The notes below the pieces were generated by a model. The model saw only the letters and a program-made list of their open reading frames with translations. It had not been told where the DNA came from and did not search any database. A stretch of 64,000 nt of DNA from Alphaproteobacteria bacterium (GTDB lineage: Bacteria > Pseudomonadota > Alphaproteobacteria > RF32 > CAG-239). The position numbers were made by a program, and so were the translations under genes. Shown here piece after piece: positions 123 to 40,281 of the stretch. Numbering within the stretch: position 1 is the stretch's first letter; every line of letters starts with the position of its first letter. The stretch spans positions 1 through 64,000 of the forward strand of contig JAFUSU010000024.1 in assembly GCA_017467515.1 (NCBI GenBank). The letters run 5' to 3'.

Positions 123-171
123 TATTGGTAGGCGCGTGGGGGTTCGAACCCCAGACCCACTGATTAAGAGT
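123..171. repeat. attL core (49 bp direct repeat, tRNA-Lys 3' fragment)
   Basis: Identical over 49 bases to 40203-40251. It contains the T arm, acceptor 3' strand and CCA of tRNA-Lys on the minus strand, plus part of the anticodon stem, but no 5' half. It is therefore a remnant and not a working tRNA. The identity ends with T/A at the left flank and G/C at the right flank. Confidence 0.93.
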
Positions 172-3767: not shown

Positions 3768-3978
3768 GCTGTTGCTTTAATTCTTTGATACGCAAACGTA
3801 ATGCTTTAGCCTCTTGCTCCATGTCCTTGTATTGTTCATACACAGGCATAGACAGGCTGGGGTTGAGTTCTTTTAATTTCTCAGCGACCTCAAAAGCGAC
3901 TTTGCGAGCCATATAATCATGCTGCTGCAAAACATTTTCGCAGATATTGATTTCGTTGATGATTTCATCTTTAGTCAT
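3748..3978 (-). CDS. Hypothetical coiled-coil protein, 76 aa
   Basis: A predicted all-helical protein with heptad-like Leu spacing at its C-terminus (AKALRLRIKELKQQLENAE). The start codon overlaps the stop of the reverse transcriptase (ATGA), so the two are probably translationally coupled. No family recognised. Whether it belongs to the DGR or is a separate late gene cannot be told from sequence. Confidence 0.55.
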   Translation of the reverse strand: MTKDEIINEINICENVLQQHDYMARKVAFEVAEKLKELNPSLSMPVYEQYKDMEQEAKALRLRIKELKQQLENAED

Positions 3979-5087
3979 ATCGATATACTCCTTAAAATTC
4001 GGCGCATATTATATACTGTTCTGCGAGCATTGCGCCGTTTCATGCTCCCAGCCCAACTTTCAAAAGATTGCGTTATGTCAAAAATTGACATTTCGCCACG
4101 ATTAAAAACAGCAATTTGCTTTTTTAATCTTCGCCGCTCAAGAATAATGCTTTTAGGACAAGGCTTTTTAATAATCTTACCCTTAACCAGATAAAACATT
4201 GTTTTAAGCCATTTAACACCATTCTTGAGTTTAATAATCATTGTCTTTTTCGGCGACAAAATAATCTTGAGCTTATCCGCCCACCACTTGAGGATAGACA
4301 GTGCTTTAACAATTGTCGCTTTGTCTTTGGCAATGATAAAGCTATCGTCCATATAACGACCATACACAACGTCTTTGCACCCCTCCGTTATCGCGTGATC
4401 AATTTCATTAGGATAAAAGATTGCATGCATTTGGCTTGTTTCCGAGCCAAGCCCTAAGCCTTTTGTGCCGTAAGCGTCAATAAAATTATCCGTCAGTTTA
4501 ATAATCCGCTCGTCTTTAAGTTTTAGACGATAAAGGCGTTTAAGTTCTGCGTGATTGATATTTTCAAAATAACCCTTAAAATCAACCAGCAGTGCATAGC
4601 CCTCACAGCCATAACGTTTATAATGCCGGCGCAGCGCCGTAACCATACGATCAATCGCAAATTTGACACCTTTGCCTTTTTGGCTTGCCGAATTATCATA
4701 AATTAAAGACTTTGAGTATGCCGGATATAAAACGCGTTGACATAAGCATTTTTGCACAACGCGCTCATAAAATTTGACAGCCGAGATATGCCGGACTTTA
4801 CCGCGCTCGCAAACCGTAAATCTTGAAAATCCTTTTCTCACATCTTTGCCGGCAAGCAAATCACGGTGCAGCTTTTCGGTATAAAGCAGTTGTTCAATAC
4901 TCCACCGCTGCACTGTCCCTTTCCACATAACATGCTTTTTAGCGTCATTAGCTGCCTCAAACAAATTATTGCGGTCGCAAATAATATCAAAATTATCAAA
5001 TTGCGATAAATAAGCCGCGCGCTTTTCCTCGCGTTTAGCTTTTCGTTTCTCAAATCTTGACTGTCTTCTTGTCATATTCAAATCCAT
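3975..5087 (-). CDS. DGR reverse transcriptase
   Basis: A 370-residue reverse transcriptase that would copy the adjacent template repeat into error-prone cDNA. Fingers and palm motifs are visible: VDFKGYFENINH (first catalytic Asp), GLGLGSETSQ (the SQ-type motif 4 typical of retroelement RTs) and YMDD at residues 245-248. No maturase, endonuclease or RNase H domain follows, as expected for DGR enzymes. The very basic first 25 residues may bind RNA. Starts at 5087 or 5075 are both possible; the second has GGA 7 bases upstream. Position downstream of Avd and template repeat, plus the adenine-only differences of the repeats, settle the assignment against group II intron or retron RTs. Confidence 0.95.
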   Translation of the reverse strand: MDLNMTRRQSRFEKRKAKREEKRAAYLSQFDNFDIICDRNNLFEAANDAKKHVMWKGTVQRWSIEQLLYTEKLHRDLLAGKDVRKGFSRFTVCERGKVRHISAVKFYERVVQKCLCQRVLYPAYSKSLIYDNSASQKGKGVKFAIDRMVTALRRHYKRYGCEGYALLVDFKGYFENINHAELKRLYRLKLKDERIIKLTDNFIDAYGTKGLGLGSETSQMHAIFYPNEIDHAITEGCKDVVYGRYMDDSFIIAKDKATIVKALSILKWWADKLKIILSPKKTMIIKLKNGVKWLKTMFYLVKGKIIKKPCPKSIILERRRLKKQIAVFNRGEMSIFDITQSFESWAGSMKRRNARRTVYNMRRILRSISI

Positions 5088-5310
5088 TGATTAAGTCTTG
5101 CAAGGCGTTAGGCGGTTTTATACCTCATAATTGTATCGGCTTAAATTAAGCGTCCGCCACAATAGCTTAAAGTGCAACTCCATATTTCAGGGGCGTAACA
5201 CCGATCATCGTCAAGACTCATATTTGCGTTAATTACGCTAGGTTTAACATTCCTTTCATTTTGATTGCATTGTGTTCAGCTTAAAAAAGCCTACTAAGAC
5301 GAGCATAAAA
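5088..5310 (-). ncRNA. DGR template RNA spacer
   Basis: 223 bases without a gene between the template repeat and the RT start. In BPP-1 the RNA that primes and templates cDNA synthesis extends from the template repeat into the following spacer; this segment holds the same position. I see no long hairpin or protein in it. The RNA itself is inferred. Confidence 0.5.
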
Positions 5311-5439
5311 GAAATCAGAGCGGCGCGCGATTGTTCGTGTTCGTCGTGTTGTTGCAGTTCGCATTACCGTTGCCGTTGACATTGCACGCATTCGTCGATC
5401 CGCCACCAGCGACAGACGAAAGCCAAAAGTTCGTACGCC
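5311..5439 (-). repeat. DGR template repeat (TR)
   Basis: 129 bp aligning without gaps to the variable repeat at 5960-6088 (offset 649). Thirteen positions differ, at 5315, 5335, 5349, 5359, 5365, 5371, 5376, 5377, 5382, 5391, 5392, 5430 and 5431. At every one the TR base on the coding (minus) strand is A. Read in the frame of the target protein the TR has 12 Asn codons (AAC or AAT), the usual design for maximal codon change through adenine mutagenesis. A GC-rich 15 bp block at 5316-5330 is the IMH*-type end. Confidence 0.96.
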
Positions 5440-5450
5440 ACATAACAATA

Positions 5451-5873
5451 TTAAACCTGTTCATGTTGCCCGACTAAATGCGTATTTTTAAGTGTTTTGC
5501 TTAAAAGTTCTATTTCGCCGAGCAGCAATTCCGTTATATTCCCAAGATTATTTGCATTAACCGTGTCGATAGTGCGAACCATGCACAGCAGGCGGTTTTG
5601 TAATTGATAACAGCCGATTATCGCCTTTTCGATATATTGACGGCGCGTGTTAAGCCTTTCCTCCGTATTAGGAAAAGTGCGGTAACTTCCGATCACATTA
5701 TCCAAAATATCGCTAACCGTTTTCATAGCACCGTGAGCGAGCATATAGCGCCATTTTTTCGGCACATATTTTTCGCTCATCATATACTTAATAACAGCAA
5801 CCTGCAAATCTTGCGCTGTTACAACATATTGGGTTGCTGTTTCTTTTCTGTTTCTTTTATAAACCGTTGTCAT
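5451..5873 (-). CDS. avd: Accessory variability determinant (Avd-like)
   Basis: A 140-residue protein that fits Avd, the small basic helical bundle that binds the RT and template RNA in DGRs. BPP-1 Avd is 128 residues. The sequence is predicted almost entirely helical (about residues 22-34, 41-60, 72-103, 111-128), as needed for a four-helix bundle. It lies exactly between the variable gene and the template repeat, the order seen in BPP-1. Identification is from size, fold prediction by eye and position; sequence motifs are weak in this family. Confidence 0.85.
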   Translation of the reverse strand: MTTVYKRNRKETATQYVVTAQDLQVAVIKYMMSEKYVPKKWRYMLAHGAMKTVSDILDNVIGSYRTFPNTEERLNTRRQYIEKAIIGCYQLQNRLLCMVRTIDTVNANNLGNITELLLGEIELLSKTLKNTHLVGQHEQV

Positions 5874-5901
5874 ATAAATACTTTCTTGAGAATTGAATTA
5901 A

Positions 5902-5927
5902 GGCGCAAGGGACAAAGCCCTCGCGCC
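5902..5927. other. Hairpin downstream of the variable repeat
   Basis: GGCGC/GCGCC and AGGG/CCCT pair around one wobble position with a six-base loop. It starts 22 bases past the stop of the variable gene and 33 bases past the end of the variable repeat. BPP-1 has a DNA hairpin just downstream of its IMH that is needed for efficient retrohoming, and this could be the counterpart. It lacks a long T run, so a terminator role is less likely. Confidence 0.55.
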
Positions 5928-5948
5928 GTTTTCAAAAGTTCGCTTACG

Positions 5949-6992
5949 CTATGCGATATGAAAGCAGAGCGGCGCGCGATTGTACGTGTTCGTCGTGCTG
6001 TTGCAGTGCGCATAACCGTGGCCGGAGACACTGCACGCAAACGTCGATCCGCCACCAGCGACAGACGAAAGCCAAAAGGACGTACGCCCGAACAGCAAAC
6101 GACCTGCCGCTGTCTTGAAAATATCCCATTGGCAATAAGGACCGTAACCCTCCCACTCGCATTGTGCTAATGCGGAGTTTTGTGAGTGGACAACATCGCC
6201 GTAAGCCTCTACCTCAGACGGTGCAAATAATGTACCTCTGCCTAACCATTCGCAACCGGTGTGATTGGTTAGTGTTGCGTCTGCGCTATATCTTTTTGGC
6301 ATGTAAACACGTTGCTCAACCATAATACTTTTTAAGGCTGTCGAAAACGTGTTGAGATAACAACCGCCTGTACCGTCAAAACCAACATCGCCGATATTAT
6401 TAGTTGTTGCATTATTGACGCCGTTTAATACTGCATTGAGCTTTGAGGCAAGAAACGGATTGTTGCTATAACTAGAGCCGTTATTATTATTGCTCGGGTT
6501 AAACAAAACGTTTGCAGTCGATAAGCCGGCGAATATTGTTAAATGGTGCGGCATATAAGGGCTTGAATCGCCGGTGTTGTAATACATATCAATACCGGCA
6601 ATCACGCATTTACGTTGCTGTCCACCGGCAACAGAAGTGCCGTCAACCGTTTGTGCAACGGTTGTGTCAAAGAAGTAGTCAAACGGATAAATTCCCTCAA
6701 AATTACCAGCTTGACAACGCGCATGTAACCAAGCAGCAACACTGCCGGCGGTTGCAATTTCGTCAGCAAATTTTTCTTCTAAGTTTGTGCCGCGATAAGT
6801 TCCGCGTGCCAATTCTTCGGCAATTCTCGCCTCAGATTGGACACCGAGTAATCTTTTCCAAGATGTAGAGCCGTCGCCGACCTTAAAATCTTTATTGGTT
6901 AAATCGACACCAATCTCGCCGCTTGCCAATACAGGGTTTGCTGAATTCCAGTTTGCCGCTGTATCTTGTCTTAATTGTATTTTTGTAGCCAT
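5949..6992 (-). CDS. DGR variable tail receptor-binding protein (Mtd-like)
   Basis: A 347-residue protein whose last 47 residues contain the variable repeat. The N-terminus (IQLRQDTAANW, GEIGVDL, KVGDGSTSWKRLLG, about residues 4-50) resembles the N-terminal domain of phage tail adhesins such as Mtd. The C-terminus (GRTSFWLSSVAGGG through NRAPLCFHIA) has the look of a C-type-lectin fold, where the varied residues line the binding face. Compared with the template, nine Asn codons now read S, F, S, S, H, Y, H, S and Y. It probably binds a host surface receptor at the tail tip, and its variation would change host range. It lies 32 bases downstream of the long fibre gene, perhaps its attachment partner. 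Confidence 0.92.
   Translation of the reverse strand: MATKIQLRQDTAANWNSANPVLASGEIGVDLTNKDFKVGDGSTSWKRLLGVQSEARIAEELARGTYRGTNLEEKFADEIATAGSVAAWLHARCQAGNFEGIYPFDYFFDTTVAQTVDGTSVAGGQQRKCVIAGIDMYYNTGDSSPYMPHHLTIFAGLSTANVLFNPSNNNNGSSYSNNPFLASKLNAVLNGVNNATTNNIGDVGFDGTGGCYLNTFSTALKSIMVEQRVYMPKRYSADATLTNHTGCEWLGRGTLFAPSEVEAYGDVVHSQNSALAQCEWEGYGPYCQWDIFKTAAGRLLFGRTSFWLSSVAGGGSTFACSVSGHGYAHCNSTTNTYNRAPLCFHIA
5960..6088 (-). repeat. DGR variable repeat (VR)
   Basis: 129 bp encoding the C-terminal residues of the tail protein from R-T-S-F-W to L-C. It matches the template at 116 of 129 positions and each difference corresponds to a template A. The invariant GC-rich block (5965-5979) at its 3' coding end is the likely initiation-of-mutagenic-homing site. 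Beyond 6088 and before 5960 the two repeats no longer match. Confidence 0.95.
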
Positions 6993-7024: not shown

Positions 7025-9175
7025 TTAAGCGGCTTGAGCGCCGCCTCCATGGATTGCAACCAACAAACTTGCTGCCTCTGTTGCAGAACCTTGTGCCGCG
7101 GTTGCTGATCCGGCTGCCGCGGTTGCTGATGTGGCTGCTGCTGTCGCAGATGTTGCTGATTGTGTTGCGGATTGCGCCGCTGCTGTTGCACTATTGGCTG
7201 CCTCTGTTGCACTGCCGGCTGCTGCTGTCGCAGATGTTGCCGCAGCGGTTGCGCTTGCCATAGCGTCGGCATAGTTAGAAATTCTAATCGTGCCGGCATC
7301 GCCGCCGTCCAAATTATCGTTTGCCGGCGTTGCAGCGTCGCCGCCGTCAATTTCCCAGCCAAACGAATCTGTACCTGCAAAACCGCCAAACGTCATAAAG
7401 CCGTCATTTTCCAACCAAGCTAAGATAAGTTGCATAACTGCAACATTTCCCGACAAGGTTTGAATAAATGGCAGATTATTTTTGACAATCTGAAAGTCTT
7501 GCGAATTGATTGTGTCAGCCTTATCGGCTGCCTCTTGCGCTGATATAACAGCGGTCGTTGCGCTGCCGGCTGCTGCTGTCGCTGATCCGGCTGCCGCGGT
7601 TGCCGATCCGGCTGCCGCTGTCGCAGATGTTGCCGCATTGCTTGCTGCTGTCGGCGCGGCTTGTATTGCCTCTAGGTTATCAGCCGCAGCATTAACCGCT
7701 GTAATGTTGTTAGCAACAGTGTTGACCTTGCTGATACTTTCGCCGACACCGGCGATAATTTCCAAATTATCAACGCAATCCTGTAAATTATCAGCAAACA
7801 AATTGCGGTAAACCGTGTCCGCTGCGCCACCGCTTATTGTTTCGGTTAGCGTACTGTCAGCGTAACCGCCGTGCAGTGTTTGCAGATAATCGTTATATTG
7901 AGAAACACCGCCGAAAATATAATATTCGTTATTTCCTTGCTCGATTGCTCTGCCGGTGTTACGGATTGCCTCGATATTGTTAGCATTAAGTCTGACAGCG
8001 TCGATACTTTCGCCCACCGCGTTGACATTAACAATATTATCCGCAACCTTTTTAATCCGGTTGTTATTCAATAAATTATTTGCGGCTGTCAGGGTGCGTG
8101 TTTCAGCGGCTTGCGCATTACTTGCCGAATTTGCAGCGTTGCTTGCATAAAATGCCGCATTTGTTTCGCAGTTTGCTGCCGTATTAGCACTGCTTGCCGC
8201 AGATGTTGCGCTGCCGGCTGCTGATGTTGCTGATCCGGCTGCCGCGGTTGCTGATCCGGCTGCCGCGGTTGCTGATGTTGCCGCATTGCTTGCTGCTGTC
8301 GGCGCGGCTTGTATTGCCTCTAGGTTATCAGCCGCAGCATTAACCGCTGCGATGTTGTTAGCAACGGTGTTAACCTTGCTGATATTATTGCCGGTGTTAT
8401 TAACATTACTGATTGCACCGGCGACGGCATTTATATTGCTTGCATTATTTTTAACTGCCGTAACATTGGCGGCAATTTCTGCAACCGCTGTAATATTCGC
8501 AGCTATATGAGCTAATGTATTTATATTGCTTGCATTATTTTTAACTGCCGTAACATTGGCGGCAATTTCTGCAACCGCTGTAATACTATCAACAATAACG
8601 GCGAGCGCGCTGATACTTGCGGCAATACCAGCCGTTGTATCTATATTGTTTTTGTTGGCATTAACGGCATTGATATTGGTTAAATCCTCAACAACCGCGT
8701 CAATATTATCGATTGAGCTATAAATTCGCTCGACCTGATTAACTAATATATCAGGGTTTGACACTGAGCTGACGCCGACTTTAACGCAACGGTCAAGAAT
8801 TTCCTTTTGCTGTTTCAAAATTGCTGTCAGTTTGTCGCAGGCTTTCTCTATGCTTTCGCTCGGTAATCTTCCAAACTCTCGCCAGTCTATCGGTTGCTCG
8901 ATTGGAATATTATAAACAATCGTCAATCGCTTGCCGACAGCCGGCGCTTGCAGCATTGTCAATGTTCCGTTTGCCTGATCTGCCGCCGTCATTGTAAAAT
9001 CGGTATCTTCAACCAACGTAACAACGTTACCGCCGTCAAGGTCAGACAGCTCGACTAATATTTGTTTTTTATCGTCAAGCTCATTCTTAAAATATCTGAA
9101 TGGAACAGGAAAATTAACTGTTGCACCGTCGCCCTCATACGTTGCCCTGATCGGCATACTTGCAGGTATGGTCAT
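7025..9175 (-). CDS. Long tail fibre protein with T7-fibre-like N-terminus
   Basis: A 716-residue fibre. Residues 1-130 resemble the N-terminal connector domain of T7-like fibres and tailspikes (ATYEGDGATVNFPVPFRYF, QPIDWREFGRLPSESIEKACDKL). The rest is a low-complexity shaft: N-N-I-x-x-V repeats (NVTAVKNNASNIN and variants) and S-A-T-A-A-A-G runs, probably a trimeric coiled coil or collagen-like rod. Two central segments contain less repetitive sequence that may form knobs. ATG at 9175 follows AAAGGAAAAATAA, a good ribosome site. Many long antisense and shifted open frames here are by-products of the Ala repeats. It would link the tail to the variable adhesin or carry it. Confidence 0.85.
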   Translation of the reverse strand: MTIPASMPIRATYEGDGATVNFPVPFRYFKNELDDKKQILVELSDLDGGNVVTLVEDTDFTMTAADQANGTLTMLQAPAVGKRLTIVYNIPIEQPIDWREFGRLPSESIEKACDKLTAILKQQKEILDRCVKVGVSSVSNPDILVNQVERIYSSIDNIDAVVEDLTNINAVNANKNNIDTTAGIAASISALAVIVDSITAVAEIAANVTAVKNNASNINTLAHIAANITAVAEIAANVTAVKNNASNINAVAGAISNVNNTGNNISKVNTVANNIAAVNAAADNLEAIQAAPTAASNAATSATAAAGSATAAAGSATSAAGSATSAASSANTAANCETNAAFYASNAANSASNAQAAETRTLTAANNLLNNNRIKKVADNIVNVNAVGESIDAVRLNANNIEAIRNTGRAIEQGNNEYYIFGGVSQYNDYLQTLHGGYADSTLTETISGGAADTVYRNLFADNLQDCVDNLEIIAGVGESISKVNTVANNITAVNAAADNLEAIQAAPTAASNAATSATAAAGSATAAAGSATAAAGSATTAVISAQEAADKADTINSQDFQIVKNNLPFIQTLSGNVAVMQLILAWLENDGFMTFGGFAGTDSFGWEIDGGDAATPANDNLDGGDAGTIRISNYADAMASATAAATSATAAAGSATEAANSATAAAQSATQSATSATAAATSATAAAGSATAAQGSATEAASLLVAIHGGGAQAA
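7626..7732. repeat. Internal duplication in tail fibre, copy 1
   Basis: Bases 7626-7701 are identical to 8274-8349, and similarity continues to about 7732. It encodes the shaft block around NNIxAVNAAADNLEAIQAAPTAASNAATS. The two copies lie 648 bp apart and could recombine to lengthen or shorten the fibre. Confidence 0.85.
8274..8380. repeat. Internal duplication in tail fibre, copy 2
   Basis: Second copy of the shaft block, 76 perfectly matching bases followed by a few differences. See the copy at 7626. Confidence 0.85.
8430..8585. repeat. Tandem 90 bp repeat in tail fibre
   Basis: Bases 8430-8495 recur exactly at 8520-8585, a spacing of 90 bp or 30 residues. It encodes AEIAANVTAVKNNASNIN twice, so the shaft grew by tandem duplication. 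Confidence 0.85.
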
Positions 9176-9264: not shown

Positions 9265-12200
9265 CTATTCGTCTTTATCCCGCAAAGCATAAGGCGACCA
9301 GCCAAGCCATAATAACAACTCTTTTTTATACTCGTCGTTTTCGGCATAATCTCCGGCATTTTCGAACAAATCGAGCGCATACTTAACCGGCACACCGTTC
9401 AATTCTCCGACCGGCTTGCCAAACTCTTTAAGAACGCTGTAAACGTCTTCAAACTCATATTCTTCGTCAGCGAGTTTCATAAACGCATTTATCAAATCTT
9501 CAATACTACCATATCCTTGCAGCACATCTTTAATCATCATGTGCTTAGACTTTGCTTGTCCGGCGGCAGCGTCCCAGATATTTGATAAAATATTTGCAAC
9601 AATGAAAAATCCGTTCACTGATCCAAGCACACCGGCTTTAAGCTGCGCCTTTTTATCCCACTCAAAACCGTCTGCCGCATATTGGAACAAACACGGCAGC
9701 AAAACATGGAAAATAAACAAGGTTTTCAATCCTTGTTTAACGCTCATTCTGCCGGTTGCCATACCGCGCACGGCGTTAATTTCCTTACGCAGATATTGGT
9801 TTTGTGAACTCATAAACATCGTAAACGCGCGCAAAAACGGGTTGCTTTGCCAATAGCTTTGCTGGCTTATGCGTCCTGATTGCTGCGTTTCGTCCGTTAC
9901 GCGCTCAAAGGTTTCTAAGGCTTTCGCTTTAGCCTCTTTTTCGCTCATACCGGCTTTAAGATTTTTCTTTAATTCTGCTTTATACAAAGCCCAGCCGCCG
10001 GCATAAATTGCGCCTCTATCGCCCAATCTGATGTTTAACATCATTAAATCGCTCAATTTAATGCCTTTTTTGCCTTTCAAAACATCGAGTTTTGAGAGTT
10101 CGGCAAAGTCGCGGATAATATCCACGCCGCGCGTTTTCATTAAGGTTGTATTGCCAAGCGTATTGATTGCCTCACGCATGTGGAGGAAAAAGTCACTAAT
10201 ACCGAGTGAAAAATCCGCAACGCTCATGTATTCCAAATAAGCAGGGAAAGATGTGAGCTGCTTAATCATAAGGCTCGGCTTAACCGATAACACTGATTTT
10301 GCAAAATTTGAGCGGACTTTATCATAAACGTACCACCTGCCGTCCGGCACTTTACTGCCTGCCATGTTGGTAATCTCGGTTTTGATACGATTATTTGTTG
10401 AGCTGCCAAATTGGTTTTCAATAATTTTCTTGACCTCCGTATCGCCGAAAATCGAATTTATATCAACCAATTTATCAGACCATGCCAGCCAGTGATTTGT
10501 TTGCGCAACATATTTATTCCACGTTGCAAAAGCGCCTTTAATATCGACCGCGCCGGCTTTTGCCGTTCTGTTCTTCGTGAATCCGGCGGCAGCAAAAGCC
10601 ATGCTGCCGTCTTCAACGTTAATGCCCGAGCGGATCATTGAGCGCGGCGAATAGTAAGGATTGTGCGGCATAGATACGCCGTATTTTTCCTCATAAAAAT
10701 TATTGATTTTAGCATAATTATCATTATAAAAATCAAATAAAGCTTGTGCAACCGCTCGATCCTGCGCGTTTAATTCCATACCAACGGCGCGCAAAAAATC
10801 CTCATTATAAGCGTTGATTTTATCGTCAAGCATAATTTTACGCGTTTCCTCGTCTTTTGCTTTCATATAAATATCCAAGAGCTGATCTTTAGTAAAAGTC
10901 TTACTGCCGGCGTTCCATTCAACTTTGACTTTTTTCTTAATTTCATTGTTGATGTACTTGCTCGCGGCGATAATATCGTTGCCGCTGCCTTTAAGAGCGT
11001 CAGCCATATACTTTGATATTTTTTCGCCATCATCGGCAATACCGCGAGCCTCAGCTTGTTCTTGCTCAAACACGTCCATAATTTTGCTTAGCTTACTTTT
11101 GTTTGTGGTTGAACTCTTATCATTCATAGAGAGCAAATCCATTAAGCCGCCCCAACTGTATTGACTTTGTCCGAGCCGGTGCAAAAACTTCTTAACCTCG
11201 CTGTTTTCTTTATGATAATCAATATCGCCGTTGTCGGTTAAAACATCTTTGACCTCTTGCAACATTTTATTACGGCGTGCTTTTTTGAGTTCGCCGGTAA
11301 CATTTGCCGTTAAGCGTCCGACGTTGTAACTATCAGACAAATCGCCATAAAGTTTGATAACACTTTTGAGATCAGACGATTTTGCCGGTATGGATAATAT
11401 CCGATTTTCGAGCGCTAATAAATTCATAAGGCTTGCGCGGTCGGTTTCATTAACCGGCATACCTAAAATCTTATTGCGTTCAATTTCCGGTATTTCCTTG
11501 CTTTGCAAAATAGCCGTTATAATGCCTTTGTTTGTTGCCAGTGCTTTTTTGGCATCTTCTTTAGAGAGCAGCATGTCAGCACGAACAGCATCAAAAAAGT
11601 CATTGGTTTGCTTGTTTGTGAATCGCCCGATGGTTCTACCGTTTTGTTCACGCGGTGCACTCCATTCGAGCAGCCTGTTTATTTTTTCAATAACATCACG
11701 TTTGTTAATATTACCGCGCTGCAATGCCTCACGATATTTAAGTGTATCAAACGGATTAAGTGCCTCGTGATGTTCTTTTCCTGCGGCGTCAAGAGTTTTT
11801 AACTCTTTATACACATCTTTACGCTTAAGCTCACCGGTTTTTAGACGTTCAAGAATACTGTCTAAATCTGCGCGGCTGATTTTGCCGGCTTTAAGCAGCG
11901 TCAGCGCATAATTAACCGTGTCAGCGGAAATATTACCGCTTTCGGCTGCCTCAGCCATTTTAAGACTACTCATTTGCATTGTAAAATCGAGCGATTTGCC
12001 GCCGAGCATATCGTCAAATGTCTTGCGCATTTCGTCCGATAACTTAACGCCTTGCAGCCGGCGAACTTCAACCCACATACTGCGCAGCCATTTCTTAAAG
12101 CGAGCAAATACTTTGCCGAGTAATTGGTTAGGCGCGCGCCCCTCGAGTAAATAAACCTCAAAACTGTTTGCAAAATACTCATGCTGTTCGGTTGTTAAAT

Positions 12201-15200
12201 TGCCGTCCTCACTGCCGAGATAGGCATAAATCGCCTCAAGCTGTTGCACGGTTGCCTCGTCGTCCGAAAACTTACGCATATCGTCCAAGAAGAAATGCCC
12301 GAGTTCATGTATAACGGTTGACGCGTCAGCGTGTTCAAACAGATAAATTAAGCCGTTTTTATACGCACCACGCGGATTATTGCCGCTTTGTTCCTGATAA
12401 AACTTTTGAATAACCTTAACGTCTGCCGGATTGAAGATAACAAAACACCGTCCGTCCTGTCTGCCGTCGTAAGTAATACCTTTAACGCCAAACTCGGCTA
12501 ACAGTTTAGAAACAAGCGGTTTTATTTCCTTGCTAGAATAAACAAGGCTGCGGTCTTTACTTTTTGCGACCATAGGGATAAGCGCCTCATATATCTCTTT
12601 ACCGTCCACTGATTTGTTTTGAACGCGATCCTTACAGCTTTGTTTTTCTTCTTCTGTAAGATTAAGAGAATCAATAGCACTTAAAATGCCTTGTTTAACT
12701 AAATCACTTTGTTCATCAAAAGATTTTTGTTCGTCAAGCAAATAAGGATTTTCCGGTAAATCCACCTCGTGGACTTGTCCCCATTGTTTTATAACAAAAT
12801 CACTGTCGTTAAGCGTCTTTGCTTTTTCTCTTATAGTTTCAGCTTTTTCGTATGCTGCCTTAAATTGCTCAGCACTATATCTTTGATAATATTGTTTGCT
12901 GTCTGAAATATAATCATTTAAGGCTTTTATAAAATATTCTTTAGGATTCATATCTGGGTTTGTTTCGAGTAAAAGTAATGCTCCGTCATAATATCCGATA
13001 AAACCTGTTAATCCCTCTAAATAATCGCCTAAACTTTTTCCTTGTATCGTCAATGACGATTTTTGAGAACCAAGAAATGCCTCACGGTAACGCTCAGCTA
13101 CATCTCTATTTAAGGCATAATACAAGCCCCAGCCGTGTGCTTGCGCCCCCTCGCCACTACCGATTGCCTCCAAACTCGGCGCGTCATAATCCACGCGCGA
13201 ACCAGCAAAAGCAGATTGATATAAAGTATTATTGACATTATCGTCCGGTTGTGTTACATTATTTATAGCGGATAATGATTTTTCATTATCTCGTACGGCG
13301 GACAAGTCATAAATGATTTGTCCGTCTTTTATTGTATTATTAACCTGTTTCTTTTTCGGGCGATAATTAGTAACATAAAAGCTGCCGTCGCTCGCAACCT
13401 TTACAATCTGCAAATGCGGCTTAACCTTGCTGTTATCAATAAAAAATTTAATATAATGATTTTTCTTACCAACCTTAACAATCAAATTCGGACGCTCGAT
13501 TGTTGCCACAACGTAATTCAAAAACGTTTTGCGCTGCGGCTCATTATCGTTGAGTAAATGCTCAAAATGTTCTTCTTTGATCTTTATATCTTCGATTGGC
13601 GACTTAACGCGTGCCGTTCCGTCTTCGCCGGCATTTAAGGCTTTTTTTATTTCTTCTTTTGTTGTGCCGGCAAAACGCTCAGGTGCGTTTTCTATTAAAC
13701 CAGCTTGCTCGTGTATAGCAATAACGTTGTCATAAATCTTATCCGATCCGTCTTTAAGATAACGTTGCTTATTAGAGTTAGCCGCCTCTTGATAATTCCA
13801 CCGAGAATCCTCGTCAATATATTGCTCACTGTACCTGTCGGCAGCCTCGTTATAGGCTTGCTCTGCCTCTGCTGCCGTCATATTGCTGTAATCAATACCG
13901 AGCATGTCAAATTGTTCACGCAGGCTGTCAACATAGTCAACAATCGTCATGTTTTCGCCCTCTTGATATTGATAATGCTTATTACCAAACAATTCGTCTT
14001 GTATAGCATCAAGCAAATCGTTAATTGAGGGGCGTTCTTCCGTATTCGGAAAATAACCGTTTTCCCATGCAGCAAGCGCCTCGTCGTCAAGGCTGTTACC
14101 GCCTTTGTTGTTGATAAGTCCGATATATTGCTTATCTGCGTCCATTGCTTTAAGCTCGCCGCCAACGTCTTTTAAGCCGCCGCGTCCTTTTAAGAAAGCG
14201 AGCAAACTTTTGCCTTTATCAAATCTCTTAACACCGCGCAAAAGTTTTGGATTAACTAACGCCTCGAACGGATTGATATTATCAGGATTTATCTTTTTTG
14301 AGTTCTTAACTTTGCTTAATGTATCTTTGCCGTTTAGTACGCCTGACACAGCAGCAACGCGTTTATTCAAAGCGCGAATCACATCGCTTGCCGTCTTACC
14401 CTCAAACCACCGTTTTGCCGTTTCCTCGTTAAAGTTTTCGGCTTTCAAATCGCCATAGCGTGCGCGTTCTTCAAAACCGCGGCGTATAGCTTTCTTTTCC
14501 GCCTCAGAGTATGCCTCGGGGACTAAACGCATGATATTATCGACATGTACCTGACTTTGAGCATAACGATTAACCGGCGGAACACCTTTTTCAAAATCAG
14601 CAAAGTTTTGTTGCGCAAATTGCAAGTTCCAACGTTTCATAACTTCCGCAGCCGTAACATTGCTGTTTTTCGCCACCGTTATTGCACGCGCTGCAAGTAG
14701 TCGAGCCTCGCCGTCAGCGGCTTGCGTTGACCGTCCTGCCATTTCCAAAGCATCACGATAAGCGGTATAAACTTCGTTAAATTGATTGCGCGCGTCAATC
14801 AGATTGAGTGTGCCGCGAATTGTCTTATCAATATCCTCGTCCGTCATCTCATATTTTTCTTTAAGCAGCTTGCGTGTTTCAGCCGTTAAACTTTCGGGCG
14901 TCAAACCCTCCGGCATAACATCGCTGTCGTTTTCACGGCGCAGCAGCTCATTGAGCTCGCTTTCATAGACCGGCGCAGATTGAAACAAAACTTCTTGCAC
15001 GGCGTCCGCTGTTGTTTGCAGTTCATCGCTCGTTAGTTCCGGTGTCTGTTCTTTTAAGAAATTTTTGATTTTATCGTTGGTTTCTTTAACGCGATTATTA
15101 TAAACGCTCGTCCCGACAACGCCCATACCTGCACCACTGACGCCACCAACGGCAAAAGACCAAAGGCTTTGACTTAATATTTCATCAAATCCGTAATTAG

Positions 15201-16209
15201 ATACGTCTGTTGCGTTTTCAAACAACATACCGCCGGCTTGTTGTGCCAATTCCTCGCCGCCCTCAGACATAAAACCTTTAACCGTTGCCGCAAAAATGCT
15301 GTCCGTATGACGTGAGCCGATTTTCTTTAAGGCAGATTGTCCGAGCTTGCTTTTTGCCAGTTTAACTGCTGCCGATGAAATAACACCTTTGCCGAGTTCT
15401 TGAATAGGCTTGATCTTACCGACACTAAGCAGCAGCTTATCGCCGACAAATTCAATACCGCCCTCGATTGATCCGGCAATTGCGGCGTCAAAGCTTGCTG
15501 TTTCAGCATCTTGACCAGCGGCAAGTGCCTTATCAAAATATTCTGTATCGCGCATAGCAGCATAGACCGAGCTGATAATACCGGCGGCAACGGTCGGATT
15601 CTTTGTCGCCACCGCTGCTGCCGCAGTTTCCGCAACAGATACAGCCGCACCGCCGACACCGACCATAAACTCGTCAATACTGTCCATTTGTTCTGTCGGG
15701 CGCAGAATTTCCGCGCCCTTGCTAAAGAAAGATTTTGTGCGCTCACGCATTTTTTTGATTAACTCAATTTTTTCCTTTTGCCGGTCGATATATCCTTGTT
15801 TTTCTTCGTCCGTCAGTTCTTTATTACCAAAATGCGACCAATCGCCGGATTGCCAAGCCTCAAGCAGTTTTTGTCTTTTTTGATAGCTGTAACTCTTTTC
15901 GATAAATGTGTCTGCTAATTGCCCGACATGTTCAACAACACCACGGTTGACGTCATTAAAAACATCTTCAATCGCCTCGCCGGCGGCGTCCGTCATCATT
16001 TTTGCCTTGCCAAAAAAAGAGGCTTTACTCAGACCTTTGTGCTGCGTATCGATTGCAAATTGAGCATCGCGTCCGTCCATACCGAGCGGCACGTTATACA
16101 TTTGCTGATTTTCGGCGTCCATAACTGATTGCGTCATTGGTTGGGTATTGTTTTCAATTTCCCATTGCGGCGCAACTGCGGCGCTATTGTTTTCAATTTC
16201 CCAAGCCAT
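9265..16209 (-). CDS. Giant polyvalent internal virion/ejection protein, 2314 aa
   Basis: The position after the gp14- and gp15-like genes matches T7 gp16 (1318 residues), but this protein is far longer. Domains I can see: helical N-terminus (1-860); a segment about 870-960 (IKEEHFEHLLND, YVVATIERPNLIVK, GSFYVTNYRPKK) like BECR-fold nuclease domains of phage polyvalent proteins (PBECR); about 1005-1260 an ADP-ribosyltransferase-like polyvalent domain (LEAIGSGEGAQAHGWGLYYA, later GITYDGRQDGRCFVIFNP); about 1298 a zincin motif HELGH; then long helical parts and two hydrophobic segments near the C-terminus. It is probably injected with the DNA to cross the envelope and attack host targets. Enzyme activities are inferred from motifs. 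The start overlaps the previous gene's stop region by one base. Confidence 0.8.
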   Translation of the reverse strand: MAWEIENNSAAVAPQWEIENNTQPMTQSVMDAENQQMYNVPLGMDGRDAQFAIDTQHKGLSKASFFGKAKMMTDAAGEAIEDVFNDVNRGVVEHVGQLADTFIEKSYSYQKRQKLLEAWQSGDWSHFGNKELTDEEKQGYIDRQKEKIELIKKMRERTKSFFSKGAEILRPTEQMDSIDEFMVGVGGAAVSVAETAAAAVATKNPTVAAGIISSVYAAMRDTEYFDKALAAGQDAETASFDAAIAGSIEGGIEFVGDKLLLSVGKIKPIQELGKGVISSAAVKLAKSKLGQSALKKIGSRHTDSIFAATVKGFMSEGGEELAQQAGGMLFENATDVSNYGFDEILSQSLWSFAVGGVSGAGMGVVGTSVYNNRVKETNDKIKNFLKEQTPELTSDELQTTADAVQEVLFQSAPVYESELNELLRRENDSDVMPEGLTPESLTAETRKLLKEKYEMTDEDIDKTIRGTLNLIDARNQFNEVYTAYRDALEMAGRSTQAADGEARLLAARAITVAKNSNVTAAEVMKRWNLQFAQQNFADFEKGVPPVNRYAQSQVHVDNIMRLVPEAYSEAEKKAIRRGFEERARYGDLKAENFNEETAKRWFEGKTASDVIRALNKRVAAVSGVLNGKDTLSKVKNSKKINPDNINPFEALVNPKLLRGVKRFDKGKSLLAFLKGRGGLKDVGGELKAMDADKQYIGLINNKGGNSLDDEALAAWENGYFPNTEERPSINDLLDAIQDELFGNKHYQYQEGENMTIVDYVDSLREQFDMLGIDYSNMTAAEAEQAYNEAADRYSEQYIDEDSRWNYQEAANSNKQRYLKDGSDKIYDNVIAIHEQAGLIENAPERFAGTTKEEIKKALNAGEDGTARVKSPIEDIKIKEEHFEHLLNDNEPQRKTFLNYVVATIERPNLIVKVGKKNHYIKFFIDNSKVKPHLQIVKVASDGSFYVTNYRPKKKQVNNTIKDGQIIYDLSAVRDNEKSLSAINNVTQPDDNVNNTLYQSAFAGSRVDYDAPSLEAIGSGEGAQAHGWGLYYALNRDVAERYREAFLGSQKSSLTIQGKSLGDYLEGLTGFIGYYDGALLLLETNPDMNPKEYFIKALNDYISDSKQYYQRYSAEQFKAAYEKAETIREKAKTLNDSDFVIKQWGQVHEVDLPENPYLLDEQKSFDEQSDLVKQGILSAIDSLNLTEEEKQSCKDRVQNKSVDGKEIYEALIPMVAKSKDRSLVYSSKEIKPLVSKLLAEFGVKGITYDGRQDGRCFVIFNPADVKVIQKFYQEQSGNNPRGAYKNGLIYLFEHADASTVIHELGHFFLDDMRKFSDDEATVQQLEAIYAYLGSEDGNLTTEQHEYFANSFEVYLLEGRAPNQLLGKVFARFKKWLRSMWVEVRRLQGVKLSDEMRKTFDDMLGGKSLDFTMQMSSLKMAEAAESGNISADTVNYALTLLKAGKISRADLDSILERLKTGELKRKDVYKELKTLDAAGKEHHEALNPFDTLKYREALQRGNINKRDVIEKINRLLEWSAPREQNGRTIGRFTNKQTNDFFDAVRADMLLSKEDAKKALATNKGIITAILQSKEIPEIERNKILGMPVNETDRASLMNLLALENRILSIPAKSSDLKSVIKLYGDLSDSYNVGRLTANVTGELKKARRNKMLQEVKDVLTDNGDIDYHKENSEVKKFLHRLGQSQYSWGGLMDLLSMNDKSSTTNKSKLSKIMDVFEQEQAEARGIADDGEKISKYMADALKGSGNDIIAASKYINNEIKKKVKVEWNAGSKTFTKDQLLDIYMKAKDEETRKIMLDDKINAYNEDFLRAVGMELNAQDRAVAQALFDFYNDNYAKINNFYEEKYGVSMPHNPYYSPRSMIRSGINVEDGSMAFAAAGFTKNRTAKAGAVDIKGAFATWNKYVAQTNHWLAWSDKLVDINSIFGDTEVKKIIENQFGSSTNNRIKTEITNMAGSKVPDGRWYVYDKVRSNFAKSVLSVKPSLMIKQLTSFPAYLEYMSVADFSLGISDFFLHMREAINTLGNTTLMKTRGVDIIRDFAELSKLDVLKGKKGIKLSDLMMLNIRLGDRGAIYAGGWALYKAELKKNLKAGMSEKEAKAKALETFERVTDETQQSGRISQQSYWQSNPFLRAFTMFMSSQNQYLRKEINAVRGMATGRMSVKQGLKTLFIFHVLLPCLFQYAADGFEWDKKAQLKAGVLGSVNGFFIVANILSNIWDAAAGQAKSKHMMIKDVLQGYGSIEDLINAFMKLADEEYEFEDVYSVLKEFGKPVGELNGVPVKYALDLFENAGDYAENDEYKKELLLWLGWSPYALRDKDE

Positions 16210-40202: not shown

Positions 40203-40251
40203 TATTGGTAGGCGCGTGGGGGTTCGAACCCCAGACCCACTGATTAAGAGT
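40203..40251. repeat. attR core (49 bp direct repeat within tRNA-Lys)
   Basis: Identical to 123-171. It covers the 3' half of the tRNA from the anticodon loop to just past the CCA end, so integration keeps the tRNA intact. Confidence 0.93.
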
Positions 40252-40281
40252 CAGTTGCTCTACCAACTGAGCTACGCACCC
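40206..40281 (-). tRNA. tRNA-Lys(CTT)
   Basis: 76 bases on the minus strand. Acceptor GGGTGCG pairs with CGCGCCT (two wobble pairs). The D arm is GCTC-AGTTGGTA-GAGC and the anticodon arm ACTGA-CTCTTAA-TCAGT has anticodon CTT. T arm TGGGG-TTCGAAC-CCCCA; discriminator A and encoded CCA. The 3' half comes from the att repeat. It is the integration site of the prophage. Confidence 0.95.

Follow-up and report, generated by a model that had tools for sequence, protein, structure and literature searches.

Diversity-generating retroelements (DGRs) are cassettes through which bacterial viruses continually change the sequence at one terminus of a tail receptor protein. They are well known, with more than 30,000 reported from metagenomes (PMC8144416), and their reverse transcriptases (RTs) carry a signature, the SQ motif, of the form (I/V/L)GxxxSQ in motif 4 (PMC3521204). 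In the DGR of BPP-1, which is arranged mtd-avd-TR-brt, the spacer between the template repeat (TR) and the RT gene recruits RT-Avd, and an adenine within that spacer primes cDNA synthesis (PMC12875486). BPP-1 also has fixed mismatches at the IMH*/IMH edge of its repeats (PMC3240598).

The locus described here occupies positions 3975-6992 of the window, by which we mean the whole 64,000-nucleotide stretch of DNA that was analyzed. It shares with BPP-1 its gene order, differences between TR and variable repeat (VR) that are confined to template adenines, a target protein with an Mtd-type N-terminus and a lectin fold, a G+C-rich 3′ end of the repeats, and a structured RNA between TR and RT. In contrast to BPP-1, it has a much diverged RT, no strong stem-loop after VR, and an edge difference with A in TR and C in VR, where BPP-1 has C in TR and A in VR. 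The DGR of Roseburia phage Shimadzu (LR596903) resembles the window cassette in its RT (45% identical), its annotated Avd and its TGA/TGC edge, but is accompanied by P2-type tail genes and encodes a target protein with a different N-terminus. From its sequence, we are highly confident that the window locus is a complete, probably working, phage-type DGR. Its mechanism is of an ordinary, well-understood kind and is not novel; given how well known DGRs already are, the cassette as such adds one entry to the catalogue.

On the minus strand, the cassette runs from the target gene (6992-5949) through an avd-like gene (5873-5451), TR and a spacer to the RT gene (5087-3975). This is the VP-Avd-TR-RT order of BPP-1 that the preliminary description had assigned to a YMDD-containing RT (3975-5087, minus strand) and an Avd-like open reading frame (5451-5873, minus strand), and its broader claim that the tail module of a prophage holds a complete DGR is borne out by the RT family and signature, Avd homologues, the TR/VR pattern, the spacer RNA, tail genes and att sites. 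The surrounding 40-kb prophage is complete and intact, with attL (123-171, plus strand) and attR (40203-40251, plus strand) forming an identical 49-bp direct repeat, the latter within the 3′ part of a tRNA-Lys gene (40206-40281, minus strand). An integrase is encoded at 328-1551 on the plus strand (PF00589, 8.3e-27), and genes for a terminase, a head-to-tail connecting protein, tail tubular proteins and an endolysin were also found. Directly upstream of the target gene lies a tail protein gene (7025-9175, minus strand; phrog_1640 tail protein, 2.6e-22), whose product has 7-residue repeats rich in Ala and Ser; the corresponding 21-bp units are strongly tandem at the DNA level. In another prophage protein, of 2314 aa (9265-16209), residues 865-967 form a PBECR2 nuclease-like domain (PF18810). 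The sole whole-genome match to the RT comes from a sheep-rumen MAG assigned to the Alphaproteobacteria, which is consistent with the proposed gut-type alphaproteobacterial host.

TR (5311-5439, minus strand) carries IMH* at its 3′ end and an in-frame TGA with its A at 5315, while VR (5960-6088, minus strand) encodes, in frame, C-terminal residues of the target protein. As first reported, no gaps are needed to align the two 129-bp repeats, and each of the 13 positions at which they differ is an A in the template (A to T at six, A to C at five and A to G at two). Adenines make up 31 of the 129 TR bases, and the hypergeometric probability that all 13 differences fall on A by chance is approximately 9e-10. 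We likewise recovered the reported change of nine out of twelve template Asn codons: TR contains 12 AAY codons, nine of which are altered in VR (to S, F, S, S, H, Y, H, S and Y), and these nine cover 12 of the 13 differences.

The preliminary description had attributed this pattern to adenine mutagenesis and suggested a comparison with related prophages, and the adenine-only pattern does recur there. Across 81 distinct pairs of TR and VR taken from related phages, changes affect 1214 of 2475 template adenines (613 to G, 353 to T and 248 to C) as opposed to 19 of 6744 other bases, a count in which non-A differences may be underestimated, as the pair finder tolerates A mismatches, to an extent limited by a base control. 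Because the finder favors A, the search was repeated with each base in turn as the tolerated one; among 80 related loci read on the RT strand, a pair was found in 68 with A tolerated, and in none, two and none with C, G and T, respectively. No copies of TR or VR were found in the genome beyond its two cassettes, the second of which is described below. Exact-pattern scans of viral contigs for TR-like DNA matched one already known contig alone, and therefore supplied no second sample of the window phage.

Adenine mutagenesis accounts for 12 of the 13 window differences and not for the thirteenth, which lies at the 3′ edge of the repeats (TR 5315, VR 5964), where the in-frame TGA of TR is matched by TGC in VR. 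The putative IMH (5964-5983, minus strand) is the G+C-rich 3′ end of VR (CGCGCGCCGCTCTG) and includes this fixed C at 5964. The same 3′-most difference, GAT in TR and GCT in VR, occupies a shared position in 67 related pairs, of which 66 show A to C and one (L072) A to T. Under the spectrum seen elsewhere in the repeats (20% C), such uniformity has a probability of approximately 1e-44, although the loci are not independent. As 66 of the 67 pairs pair a TR adenine with a VR cytosine here, the thirteenth difference is a fixed mark at the IMH*/IMH edge and not a product of mutagenesis, and it should be left out of counts of hypermutation. The edge rule would mark the point at which cDNA transfer stops. 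We also considered whether the TGA of TR serves as a dedicated safety stop, and rejected this because the corresponding codon is CGA or GGA in 30 of the 67 pairs; the mark is the A, and the stop codon in the window TR is incidental. Six further loci (L095, L110, L112, L125, L134 and L135) have an edge difference of C to T two bases further on (GGCTCC/GGCTTC) instead of A to C.

The spacer between TR and RT (5073-5308, minus strand) matches the Rfam family RF03077, named RT-2 RNA, at 52.3 bits (gathering threshold 40) and contains the conserved TCTTAGTAGG element; at the same place BPP-1 carries RF03022, a DGR RNA. RT-2 was found at 34 of the 39 non-BPP-1 loci scanned, the window included, comprising all ten of the close set (the window, L005 and L012-L019), phage Shimadzu (145 bits) and, among wider relatives, 13 of 14 in one set and 10 of 13 in another. 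It begins 2 nt past TR in the window and no more than 6 nt from the TR end in most loci. Within the 39 loci, it was missing at L020, L118, L116, L151 and L152, and the spacers of the last three have no Rfam match. In an alignment of nine spacers, the consensus structure pairs in 94% of cells and covariation is strong, as 28 of 42 pairs have changes on both sides; no shuffled alignment scored as high and sliding the partners reduced pairing to 29-41%, although part of this excess is expected, as the structure was derived from the same alignment. The independent Rfam model answers this concern. Taken alone, the window spacer folds no better than shuffled sequence (z 0.45).

By analogy with BPP-1, we infer that the window spacer shares the recruiting and priming role described for the BPP-1 spacer. 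A more general proposal, which we put forward tentatively and hold as possible rather than favored, is that RF03077 is the RT-recruiting, priming spacer RNA of a broad phage DGR lineage, the counterpart of RF03022, and that the near-invariant A in TR and C in VR keeps the flow of information one-way. In the literature examined, which excluded the original description of RT-2, a link between RT-2 and DGRs was not found; the link may already be known. The scans themselves identify an Rfam RNA that bears the name RT-2 alone as the spacer RNA of this large group of cassettes; this identity supplies a sensitive model with which such DGRs can be found, and priming experiments gain a target beyond BPP-1. 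When RT-2 RNA served as a marker, it turned up in only two of 126 genomes of the host family. A third match in the present genome (contig C5, 25.8 bits) is weak, lies inside a topoisomerase gene and was taken as chance.

The same genome harbors a second complete but divergent DGR in another prophage (contig C21, 76-80 kb; L005:10392-13661). Its RT is 56% identical to that of the window, it has its own Avd, target protein, RT-2 spacer RNA and TGA/TGC edge, and its repeats, TR2 and VR2, differ at 19 positions, all of them template A. DGRs on IMG/VR contigs and in a rumen MAG (L012-L019) also share the cassette and the RT-2 RNA, with RTs 62-71% identical to the window RT (48% in L017 and 43% in L018), but have their own TR and VR sequences. 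More distant are the contigs L091 and L092, whose RT is 40% identical to the window RT and whose RT-2 RNA scores 146 bits. Over 9,270 bp, these viral contigs match at every position but 17, all of which fall in VR (3898-4025) opposite template A, and the lineage is therefore active. This pair is direct natural evidence that such cassettes work.

That the window DGR itself is no longer active, its VR having been fixed by past mutagenesis and the cassette now being merely inherited, is unlikely. BPP-1 needs a cruciform after VR for efficient homing, and the corresponding stem-loop is weak in the window (z -0.23) and strong in L005 and L141 (z approximately -4); the window RT-2 score is also among the lower ones, beneath that of most relatives. 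Both observations would fit an inactive cassette, but all of its open reading frames are intact, as are the catalytic and SQ motifs of the RT, TR and VR differ by no non-A change, the spacer RNA exceeds the curated cut-off, and relatives of the same build are active.

A working cassette modeled on BPP-1 (PMC12875486, PMC3240598) would operate as follows. The avd-TR-spacer-RT region would be transcribed from the minus strand, and the spacer RNA, in its RT-2 fold, would bind RT and Avd and prime the synthesis of cDNA at the 3′ boundary of TR. The RT would misincorporate opposite template adenines, and the mutated cDNA, guided by the G+C-rich IMH segment, would take the place of VR in the terminal part of the target gene, while the fixed A in TR and C in VR at the edge may keep the transfer one-way and the TGA of TR out of the target gene. 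The predicted outcome is variation at up to 12 Asn-codon sites in the C-type-lectin surface of a receptor-binding tail protein.

The target protein (347 aa; 5949-6992, minus strand) consists of an Mtd-like N-terminal domain (residues ~3-48) and a C-type-lectin-like domain (residues ~95-347), with VR in frame at the C-terminal end. The N-terminus matches Pfam Mtd_N (PF18454, 1.1e-14), and residues 3-48 match the N-termini of Mtd and phage hyaluronidase in structure. A sequence search of the PDB with this protein gave nothing useful. Nine sequences yielded a poor structural model (pLDDT 55.7); a model built from 33 homologues (pLDDT 86.2) was used in its place, and in it the C-type-lectin fold anticipated in the preliminary description is apparent in the C-terminal region. 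The best structural match of residues ~95-347 is the N-terminal region of an IgA peptidase (9qa6, Z 13.5), followed by TvpA (5.7), many C-type lectins (5-6), Mtd M1 (4.7) and TaqVP (4.0); these individual lectin matches are modest, and any single Z below 8 is weak, yet the list is almost uniform in fold, and three of its entries are solved DGR target proteins. The IgA-peptidase match, together with several BFVD matches to DUF6273 proteins, might suggest that the variable protein is another virion protein or a host-directed protein instead of a receptor-binding one. We consider this rather improbable in light of the Mtd_N domain, the tail protein just upstream, the prophage context, and matches to tail-fibre and 'Receptor Binding Protein' entries. 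As a receptor-binding protein, and by analogy with known DGRs, the target would allow the window phage to retarget its adhesin, as had been proposed.

The Avd-like accessory protein (140 aa; 5451-5873, minus strand) aligns with eight homologues that occupy the equivalent position in related DGRs, and is 37% identical to the annotated Avd of phage Shimadzu (E 4e-19). It matched nothing in Pfam, NCBIfam or PHROG, and a sequence search of the PDB returned no match to a solved Avd. The RT (370 aa; 3975-5087, minus strand) belongs to phrog_1423 (3.7e-66) and matches RVT_1 (2.3e-17). The DGR signature calls for (I/V/L)GxxxSQ in motif 4 and for YxDD in motif 5; the window RT has LGSETSQ and YMDD, respectively. 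A profile of the window RT and its relatives has as its best solved match the RT of 8ub7-8ube (2.6e-24), which we take to be the BPP-1 DGR complex. Weak NCBIfam matches to group II intron maturase and Drt, all far under their cut-offs, are what could be said for an RT of the defense or group II intron-like type that lies next to a repeat of chance or duplicated origin, without mutagenic homing, a reading of negligible probability that is already contradicted by the adenine-only differences in 81 pairs with their base control, and opposed by the SQ motif, the 8ub7 match and the Avd and Mtd_N neighbors. The RT tree was relied on for local grouping alone, as the open reading frames used for L090, L136 and BPP-1 were wrong; the RTs of L116, L147, L150, L151, L152 and L156 form one group of related DGR RTs.
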